Assembly (NCBI GenBank): GCA_946885755.1 | Contig: CAMPHB010000027.1 | Coordinates: 1 to 10,136 of the forward strand | DNA: 10,136 bases | Reading direction: 5' to 3' | Source of the DNA: an uncultured Methylophaga sp. | GTDB taxonomy: Bacteria > Pseudomonadota > Gammaproteobacteria > Nitrosococcales > Methylophagaceae | Part shown: positions 1-9,756 of the stretch, one piece after another | Layout: each line of letters begins with the position of its first letter | How positions within the stretch are numbered: position 1 is the stretch's first letter | The notes under the pieces: generated by a model | What the model saw: only the letters and a program-made list of their open reading frames with translations | What the model was told of the DNA's origin: nothing | The model's database searches: none | Program-made: the position numbers and the translations under genes

Positions 1-179
1 GCCGGCCCGACAAAAATGGTTTTGCTGTCACCGTGGTCAGGCAATCTTAGCCAGAGGCCTGCGCGCGCTGACTTTAGCGCCAATGAGGAAAACCAGCATA
101 GGTTAATCAGGCAAATATTCCTTTGTTTTCTGCTAAATGTTCTGTTTATAAAGTCTGATTTTTTTCGTAATGATGCATC

Positions 180-2605: not shown

Positions 2606-2620
2606 TAGGGGTTTCCCCTA
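2606..2620. promoter_or_regulatory. Candidate operator, perfect palindrome TAGGGGTTTCCCCTA (box 2)
   Basis: Two 6-base arms, TAGGGG and CCCCTA, flank a TTT centre at base 2613, 155 bases before the epsD start. The same box, one base different, is upstream of the response-regulator gene (180-194). A candidate -10 (CATCAT, 2644-2649) would place the box near -43, a position typical of activators that contact RNA polymerase at the -35 region. I infer control by the locally encoded NarL/FixJ-type regulator; the palindrome itself is directly seen. Confidence 0.65.
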
Positions 2621-2767: not shown

Positions 2768-3694
2768 ATGGACACGACACAATTTTATCGATTGTTTTCG
2801 GCCTTATTCATAACTTTACTGGTCGGCTGTGATGATGCGGCACCCAAAGCCAACACCCAGGTCGCCGCCACAGTAAATAATGAGGAAATCACCGTACATC
2901 AGCTCAATCAGGCTATTGGCGCAATGGGCGAAAAAGCCGTTAACGCAGATCAGCAGGCGCTGAGAGCGTCTGTTTTGCAGAATATGATCGTCCAGACACT
3001 GCTGGAGCAGGAAGCAGAAAAATCAGATCTGGATCGCGAGCCGTATGTGATGCAGTCAGTCGAGGCCGCCAAGCGCCAGGTGCTGGCGTCAGCCTATATG
3101 CAGCAACTCGCCACCACCCAGTCTTCAATCTCAGATGCAGACGTTGAAAACTATTATTCGGCCAATACCGATTTGTTTGCGAACCGAAAGCTGTTTGTCT
3201 ATGAGCAGGTTACGGTGCAGTCTGATATCTCAAAGTTTAAAAATGCTCAGGAGAAGTTACAGCAAATCGAACAACTGACAGACTTTACTGAATGGCTTGA
3301 GAAAAACGCGATTCCGTTCAAAGCGATAACCAAAGCCAAAACCTCAGAAAACATCCCCCAGAATCTTAGACAAGCATTATCGACGCTGGATATCGGTCAG
3401 GTAGGGTTTCTGAACCTTGCTGATGGACTGGTGGTGTTCGAAATCAAAGACAAACAATTGCAACCTGTTGAACTAGAGATGGTTTCGACGGCTATCAGAG
3501 AACATTTACGCAGCCAGAAACGTAAAGCGCAAATTGAGCAAACGGTGCAGTCGCTGAAAAAAGCTGCTGTTATCCAATACAGCGAAGACTTTAAACCCAG
3601 CGCAACAACTGCCGATGCCAACCCTTCTGATGCAACGCAAACAGAGATAGATCAGCAGTCATATATCGAAAAAGGCCTGGCCGGAATCGAGTAA
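2768..3694 (+). CDS. epsD: EpsD-family peptidyl-prolyl cis-trans isomerase-like lipoprotein
   Basis: EpsD is a SurA/parvulin-related periplasmic factor found in XrtB-type EPS operons. From the ATG at 2768 it has 308 residues and a lipoprotein signal ending in the lipobox LVGC, with Cys21 as lipidation site. The following residues are Asp-Asp; Asp at +2 is the classic Lol-avoidance signal, so the protein is probably held on the outer face of the inner membrane. Residues about 32-130 resemble the SurA N-terminal chaperone region (VAATVNNEEITVHQLNQAI), and about 140-245 the PpiC-like part, which is divergent, so catalytic activity is uncertain. Residues from about 272 form a polar, probably disordered tail. 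The ATG is preferred over the upstream TTG (2711) because of the AAAGGAAAAA region before it and the correct signal peptide. It is 14 bases before epsL, suggesting it may assist assembly of that barrel (inference). Confidence 0.88.
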   Translation: MDTTQFYRLFSALFITLLVGCDDAAPKANTQVAATVNNEEITVHQLNQAIGAMGEKAVNADQQALRASVLQNMIVQTLLEQEAEKSDLDREPYVMQSVEAAKRQVLASAYMQQLATTQSSISDADVENYYSANTDLFANRKLFVYEQVTVQSDISKFKNAQEKLQQIEQLTDFTEWLEKNAIPFKAITKAKTSENIPQNLRQALSTLDIGQVGFLNLADGLVVFEIKDKQLQPVELEMVSTAIREHLRSQKRKAQIEQTVQSLKKAAVIQYSEDFKPSATTADANPSDATQTEIDQQSYIEKGLAGIE

Positions 3695-8779: not shown

Positions 8780-8811
8780 AAGAAAAAGGCGATTCTATCG
8801 CCTTTTTTCTT
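8780..8811 (+). terminator. Intrinsic terminator after the PEP-CTERM gene
   Basis: AAAAAGGCGA (8783-8792) pairs perfectly with TCGCCTTTTT (8798-8807) around the loop TTCTA, followed by further T residues (TTTTTTCTT in all). The A-run on the 5' side means it may also work in reverse. It ends 61 bases past the stop codon and should separate the PEP-CTERM message from xrtB. Confidence 0.9.
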
Positions 8812-8892: not shown

Positions 8893-9756
8893 ATGGCAAC
8901 CAGCCAGACCTATCCGGGGCTTTACGGTAATGACTATCTAAAATGGCTATTTATCGTCGTTGGCCTTTTTGCCATGTATTTGCCGACTTTTTATAACTTG
9001 TCGGGCAGGCTCTGGCAGTCGGATGACCATGCGCACGGGCCATTTGTGTTGCTGATAGCACTGTTTTTATTTTGGCAAAAACGCGCAGTGTTGCTCACCA
9101 ACAAGGAGGTAGAAAACCAACCATTACTCGGCGGACTGTTTTTTATATTCGGTTTGCTGCTTTACCTGCTGGGCCGGTCACAAGACATTCTGGTGTTTGA
9201 TGTGGGCTCTCTGGTGCCGGTGGTGATGGGGCTGATCTTAATGACCCGGGGCTATAAAACCCTGATGGCAGTGTGGTTCCCGGTATTTTTTCTTTTATTT
9301 TTGCTGCCGATACCGGGGTTCATTATTGACGCCGTTACGTTACCGATGAAGATCGCGGTGTCTTATGTAGCGGAATCAATCCTCTACTGGTTTGACTATC
9401 CGGTAGCCCGCAATGGGGTGGTGTTGTTTGTCGGGCCGTATCAGCTGTTAGTGGCAGATGCCTGTGCCGGCCTGCAAACGCTGATTTCACTGGAAGCAAT
9501 GGGTTTGCTGTATCTGCATCTGGTGAAGCATGACTCATTTTTACGTAACTGCTTATTGGCATTAGCCATTATTCCGATTTCATTTACGGCGAATGTGACC
9601 CGTGTTTTGACATTAATTCTGGTGACCTATTATTTCGGAGACGATGTGGGACAGTCCTATTTACATGATTTTGCCGGGTTATTTCTGTTCATGGTGGCGT
9701 TGGTGCTGATCATATCGGTCGATACCGTGCTGTCTAAATTTTTAAAAGATGCCTGA
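8893..9756 (+). CDS. xrtB: Exosortase B (EpsH/XrtB)
   Basis: Exosortases are multi-span inner-membrane cysteine transpeptidases that process proteins with a C-terminal PEP-CTERM signal. This 287-residue protein has about eight hydrophobic segments spread from residue 17 to 275. The three conserved active-site residues are seen: Cys191 in ADACAGLQ, Arg237 in ANVTRVL and His258 in YLHDFAGL. The usual N-terminal DHAHGP (45-50, commonly YSHG/HAHG in the family) is also present. EpsI is not fused to the C terminus as it is in some exosortases; it is encoded separately 20 bases downstream. AGGA at 8887-8890 is only 2 bases from the ATG; AAAAGG at 8874-8879 may be an alternative, so the start is slightly uncertain. 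The EPS neighbours epsD, L, E, F, G fit subtype XrtB. The nearest substrate is the PEP-CTERM protein just upstream. Confidence 0.92.
   Translation: MATSQTYPGLYGNDYLKWLFIVVGLFAMYLPTFYNLSGRLWQSDDHAHGPFVLLIALFLFWQKRAVLLTNKEVENQPLLGGLFFIFGLLLYLLGRSQDILVFDVGSLVPVVMGLILMTRGYKTLMAVWFPVFFLLFLLPIPGFIIDAVTLPMKIAVSYVAESILYWFDYPVARNGVVLFVGPYQLLVADACAGLQTLISLEAMGLLYLHLVKHDSFLRNCLLALAIIPISFTANVTRVLTLILVTYYFGDDVGQSYLHDFAGLFLFMVALVLIISVDTVLSKFLKDA

Follow-up and report, generated by a model that had tools for sequence, protein, structure and literature searches.

Judged from its sequence, the window (the whole stretch of 10,136 nucleotides that was analyzed) is a Methylophaga XrtB/eps locus in which the gene for a response regulator (RR) comes after a sensor-kinase gene. 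NCBIfam and Pfam models give the gene order RR, undecaprenyl-phosphate glucose phosphotransferase, EpsD, EpsL, EpsE, EpsF, an EpsG-like kinase, a PEP-CTERM protein, XrtB and an EpsI fragment. The phosphotransferase gene (EpsB-like; 982–2364, + strand; TIGR03023, 518 bits, cut-off 410.75) begins 26 bp after the RR gene. EpsD (2768–3694, + strand; TIGR02925, 176.3 bits, cut-off 108.9) and the exosortase XrtB (8893–9756, + strand; TIGR03113, 378.5 bits, cut-off 275), which marks the locus type, exceed their NCBIfam cut-offs, as do EpsL, EpsE and EpsF; this combination identifies an XrtB-type eps locus. EpsG scores below its cut-off (211.2 vs 313.8). The closest exosortases bearing organism names are from Methylophaga.

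The RR gene (302–955, + strand) encodes a receiver domain (PF00072, 73.6 bits) and a GerE/LuxR-type helix-turn-helix (HTH) domain (PF00196, 42.8 bits), both over cut-off. These domains make it a NarL/FixJ-type RR, as the preliminary description had said, and it is the proposed binder of the two boxes described below. Against NCBIfam it fell under the cut-off of every model among the best 25 of the 65 matched. Only the 3′ end of the sensor histidine kinase gene lies in the window (3–50, + strand; assigned by likeness of its last residues). A gene of ∼795–798 codons precedes RR in the Methylophaga genomes G001–G003; in G001 and G003 it encodes PAS, HisKA_3 and HATPase_c domains (loci L133 and L134 scanned), which places a cognate HisKA_3-type kinase next to RR in both loci. 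Of these two complete homologues, only that of L133 (G003) has MASE1 over cut-off. Among the matches listed, the best NCBIfam models are MctS for the L133 kinase (98.8 bits) and MctR for RR (134.2 bits), both far under their cut-offs (700 and 300), and RR is therefore not assigned to MctR (NF052445).

Box 2 (2606–2620, + strand), a candidate operator dyad upstream of epsD, the first gene after it, has the sequence TAGGGGTTTCCCCTA, that is, TAGGGG-TTT-CCCCTA. Box 1 (180–194, − strand) reads TAGGGTAAACCCCTA on the + strand and TAGGGGTTTACCCTA on the − strand, and lies 107 bp upstream of the start codon of RR. The reverse complement, TAGGGGTTTACCCTA, matches box 2 at 14/15 bases. These positions and the single difference on the opposite strand, first reported in the preliminary description, are borne out by the sequence. 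Box 2 had also been called a perfect 15-bp palindrome; it is an inverted repeat with 6-bp arms around TTT, so the term fits the arms and not the 3-nt center. As had been claimed, the window holds no third full copy, even at up to two mismatches of TARGGGTTTCCCYTA. A 16-mer pattern (up to three mismatches) gave four matches, since each of two places is counted twice; shuffles averaged 0.38, and 0/200 of them reached four. The looser TAGGGN5CCCTA (up to two mismatches) is found at two places, both exact, where 2.06 are expected at that looseness, so this pattern is not itself unusual. By arithmetic, ∼0.0009 second 14/15 matches are expected on either strand of 10 kb, and the pair is unlikely to be due to chance. 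Copying of a promoter between the two boxes is not favored; the similarity of their flanks is weak (p 0.034).

The boxes had been taken to head both transcription units of the locus. This was partly right: the sensor-kinase gene ends upstream of box 1, at 48–50, and a terminator-like hairpin separates the PEP-CTERM gene from xrtB. This hairpin (8788–8808) was found by eye as GGCGAT-TCT-ATCGCC followed by six T, and is missing from the list of the terminator scan. Because it precedes xrtB, transcription of xrtB–epsI may start at a separate promoter or depend on read-through. In the epsD leader, TTCGAAG (2675–2681) is complementary to CTTCGAA (2734–2740) and could form a stem; the relative L001 has TTTCGA and TCGAAA at similar positions. 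The consensus fold left the two window segments unpaired, and a structured leader RNA was rejected, given a weak consensus from only three sequences.

Conservation was followed through a scan for xrtB, in which 80/93 loci were kept; three are from Methylophaga (L001–L003) and the other 77 are L004–L080. At their epsD promoters, L001 and L003 have an identical box 2, so that two of the three other Methylophaga eps loci share it. Across the window, L001 and L003, all 16 columns at 2605–2620 are invariant, against 41/116 in the rest of the leader; counted through 2651, 37/47 columns are invariant. L002 has no box anywhere in its 20.9-kb locus and yet keeps RR (75%), with a recognition helix that is identical in the window and L001–L003. 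No other result speaks as strongly against a strict pairing of RR and box. A VanZ-family reading frame in L002 (3201–3653; PF04892, 35.7 bits, cut-off 30.1) occupies most of the epsB–epsD gap. Box 1 has no counterpart upstream of RR in L001, L002 or L003. The orthologous promoters on which the preliminary description had staked its proposal thus split, with box 2 retained in two of three relatives and box 1 in none.

Genome-wide, exact box 2 occurs once each in G001 and G003 and is absent from the other 22 of the 24 genus genomes, some of which are small or incomplete. At up to two mismatches, 35 places were found in the genus against 84 for a reversed control, so near-matches are not enriched. 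epsD is present in three of the 24 genomes, and an RR orthologue (E 1e-40) in the same three among 63 genomes of the order. An occurrence of AAAGGGTTTCCCCTA in G002 was rejected as a candidate; it is flanked by genes that by eye resemble those for a cytochrome oxidase and an acylphosphatase, and matches of this kind are expected by chance.

Downstream of box 2, a putative −10 element (CATAGC at 2647–2652, + strand; CATAGT in L001 and L003) lies at the same distance from the box in all three loci. The sigma-70 scan listed no promoter-like site at box 2 or 2647–2652. A putative downstream half-site, TCAGGG (2630–2635, + strand), matches at 5/6 positions (offset +24, counted from the first base of box 2). 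Twenty sites were aligned on the dyad and oriented with the downstream gene. TARGGG at 5/6 or better occurs at offset +23 in 9/20 sites (L001, L176, L184 and six orthologous L187-type loci), and six Nitrosomonas sites have CCCYTA (5/6) at offset +32, where the right arm of a dyad begun at +23 would fall. Neither a half-site at +23/+24 nor a dyad half at +32 is present in box 1, L003, L148 or L180. The second half-site or dyad in part of the sites suggests two RR dimers spaced about two helical turns apart.

The search for RR homologues covered the family of a Methylotenera genome (present in 4/100 genomes), a class sample (6/274, one being Methylophaga G002), the family of genome G311 (11/54, G311 included) and other xrtB genomes (11/50). 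The homologues occur in Nitrosomonas and other beta- and gammaproteobacteria at 39–47% identity; plasmids carry two (41–43%), and a search of viral contigs for relatives found none. Much closer to RR are the proteins P0001 (98%) and P0002 (87%). An initial scan of 12 homologue loci for TAGGGN4-5CCCTA (up to one mismatch) gave one place against 2.7 in shuffles. That place, in G311, is an exact match, TAGGGAAAACCCCTA, and the only exact TAGGGN5CCCTA in the 2.6-Mb genome; it precedes an Hsp20-like gene (below NCBIfam cut-offs), RR and the histidine kinase gene. In L144 (922–936; G311), TAGGGAAAACCCCTA lies between a glycine-zipper-like gene and the divergent Hsp20-like/RR/kinase cluster. Among 12 loci of the G311 family, an AGGG/CCCT dyad is found in L148 (G311) and in L187, L188, L190, L191, L192 and L195, and is absent from L185, L186, L189, L193 and L194. 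The six besides L148 carry AGGG(G)ATTCCCT directly upstream of the kinase gene, 1.33–1.39 kb before RR. In a 4-mer count made without regard to these dyads, AGGG/CCCT occurred in 6/22 loci, and several AT-rich 4-mers were as frequent or more so.

Nitrosomonas loci L196 and L201 have TAAGGGTTTCCCTTA in the gap between RR and the next gene, and in L198, L199, L200 and L203 this gap holds a variant that differs by one or two mismatches; L197, L202 and L204–L210 lack such a site. From each perfect copy (L196, 2281–2295; L201, 1454–1468) it is 58 bp to the longest frame of a small gene that by eye looks lipoprotein-like and in L196 has no Pfam match, and in both loci an imperfect second dyad follows TAAGGGTTTCCCTTA by 23 bp.

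The association between site and regulator was then quantified with TARGGGTTTCCCYTA at up to two mismatches. Across 40 loci, 19 places were found (17 noncoding and two coding), the noncoding ones in 16 loci; 24 loci have no noncoding site, although L190, L191 and L195 among them have a three-mismatch form. For the statistical test, loci that defined the motif and their orthologues (the window, L001–L003, L196 and L201) were set aside, leaving 34 loci with 34,297 noncoding bases by our own ORF calls. Sites beside kinase–RR genes in these loci comprise 11 noncoding places in 11 loci and two coding places, and the other 23 loci have no noncoding site. None of 400 permuted palindromes reached 11 noncoding places in the same loci (mean 0.22, maximum 7), and the two highest are near-variants of the true motif. 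Eight of the 11 sites were already known when the motif was fixed, only L176, L180 and L184 being unseen, and several are orthologous, so they do not represent 11 independent events. The same search in the 77 xrtB loci outside Methylophaga (148,794 noncoding bases) returned no noncoding place and two coding ones. By both controls, co-occurrence of the site with RR homologues (11/34 loci) exceeds chance. A tree of RR sequences with 43 rows groups the Methylophaga clade with P0022, L176 and the rows of the Nitrosomonas group; this set is supported (98/87) and comprises 21 rows, of which 10 have a box. The box label clusters weakly on this tree (11 changes against a shuffled mean of 14.4; 26/500 shuffles were as low).

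The scan of related eps loci that the preliminary description had proposed therefore bears it out within Methylophaga, at two of three epsD promoters, and not in the 77 other xrtB loci. On these sequence comparisons, outside Methylophaga the box tracks the regulator and not xrtB. A general xrtB/eps operator was rejected on the absence of noncoding sites in L004–L080 and on the genomes of 28 of these 77 loci, which contain no exact copy and three one-mismatch places. An operator common to gammaproteobacteria was likewise rejected, the exact box being present in 2/369 sampled genomes and one of these copies lying inside a tRNA-Ser gene. TAGGGGTTTNCCCTA occurs at nine places in 8/369 genomes, against three for the reversed control, and none of the six places inspected has an RR relative (3-kb loci; ORF lists and tblastn with RR). 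In all, 11 loci were selected solely for a box or near-box in the genome scans, and none of them encodes an RR relative by tblastn. A tRNA-Ser gene contains a near-copy of the box in L083 (1501–1515) and an exact copy in L129 (1501–1515), and TAGGGTAATCCCCTA in G003 is also within tRNA-Ser; such copies are a source of false matches for the motif. A dispersed repeat was rejected from the genus-genome scan.

Two described systems resemble the arrangement in part. The NreC operator consensus is TAGGG-N4-CCCTA; both boxes here have a spacer of 5 between the TAGGG and CCCTA arms, and so differ from that consensus. Searches of open-licence PMC literature did not find this consensus in print, and NreC with TAGGG retrieved unrelated papers only. 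NreC is also not among the NCBIfam matches listed for RR, and the genes regulated are different. The likeness consists of a NarL-family RR and a GC-rich inverted repeat: in passages of the two papers concerned, phosphorylated NreC is described as binding a GC-rich palindrome at staphylococcal nitrate/nitrite genes (PMC5694512, PMC8139620). PrsK/PrsR is similar in being a two-component system that controls exosortase/PEP-CTERM-linked genes by way of a conserved sigma-54 DNA motif upstream of them (PMC1569441). PrsR, however, is described there as a sigma-54-interacting regulator, whereas the only Pfam domains that RR matches are the receiver and the HTH, so it does not fit a PrsR/sigma-54 PEP-CTERM regulon. 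The motif described in that paper is the sigma-54/PrsR one at PEP-CTERM genes; box 2, unlike it, lies before epsD. Within open-licence PMC, searches for the box strings gave nothing relevant, and those for exosortase with operator and palindrome and for Methylophaga with exosortase found none.

We consider that the boxes are operators of the kinase–RR two-component system encoded beside them, with box 2 activating epsD, and would put the probability of this reading at about 0.7. Several findings have to be weighed against it. Box 2 could instead be the operator of a regulator encoded elsewhere, RR being a neighbor with other targets; the boxless L002, the poor conservation of box 1 and the 23/34 homologue loci without a site would all fit this. 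One exact box per genome in G001 and G003 suits a local regulator better, and similar boxes stand beside some distant RR homologues while the noncoding DNA of the 77 other xrtB loci has none. We therefore regard a remote regulator as rather improbable. An RNA hairpin or intrinsic terminator closing the RR–epsB transcript is very improbable. The terminator scan does list box 2 (six pairs, loop of 3), but the tail, TATCCATTTT, is not a T-run, terminator-like sites in the scan barely exceed shuffles (3 vs a mean of 2.7) and no Rfam family matches at gathering thresholds, and the terminator and RNA-family readings were rejected on these grounds. Conservation that reaches downstream sequence at a fixed distance, and sites that in most homologues lie upstream of genes, also argue against a terminator.

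A narrower doubt concerns box 1, which might be a chance match, leaving only box 2 functional. It is absent from L001–L003, has no downstream half-site at +23 or +24, and its flanks barely resemble those of box 2. Such a close match is nevertheless rarely expected in a window of this size, the box is noncoding and adjoins the RR gene, and some homologue systems also have sites at their own kinase/RR operon. On balance, we think chance unlikely to account for box 1.

Returning to operators of the adjacent system, the proposal that a NarL/FixJ-type regulator binds the boxes gains from the retention of box 2 and from similar noncoding boxes beside some distant RR homologues, the latter making the adjacent regulator the most likely ligand; L002, with its identical recognition helix, counts against it. 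A phosphorylated RR dimer would use its GerE-type HTH to bind the TARGGG-TTT-CCCYTA dyad. The box 2 dyad lies just upstream of a putative weak promoter, its center ∼43–47 bp before the predicted start, so RR would activate in class-II fashion; the genes concerned would be epsD-epsL-epsE-epsF-epsG, and perhaps those beyond. A second RR dimer may occupy the half-site about two helical turns downstream, a feature of several homologues' sites as well. At epsD, box 2 thus probably serves activation. Box 1 is a lineage-specific and perhaps autoregulatory site, through which RR would act both on its own gene and on epsB, in this lineage alone. The single regulon for sugar priming and export that had been envisaged is not general, since box 1 is missing upstream of RR in all three relatives and L002 keeps RR with no box at all.

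More tentatively, and at somewhat less than even odds, the system may represent a widespread, undescribed beta-/gammaproteobacterial two-component module, in which a TARGGGTTTCCCYTA-like dyad, followed after 23 bp by the start of a second half-site or dyad, would be the single operator code for switching envelope and matrix genes. The module would have been recruited to XrtB/eps in Methylophaga; it would serve a lipoprotein-like gene in Nitrosomonas, and in other lineages an Hsp20-like gene or the operon of its own kinase. For this regulator clade, for which no published operator was found, the boxes provide a concrete candidate, and they may help to show when XrtB/PEP-CTERM exopolysaccharide loci switch on. 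The motif would allow regulon prediction in Methylophaga, Nitrosomonas and their relatives.
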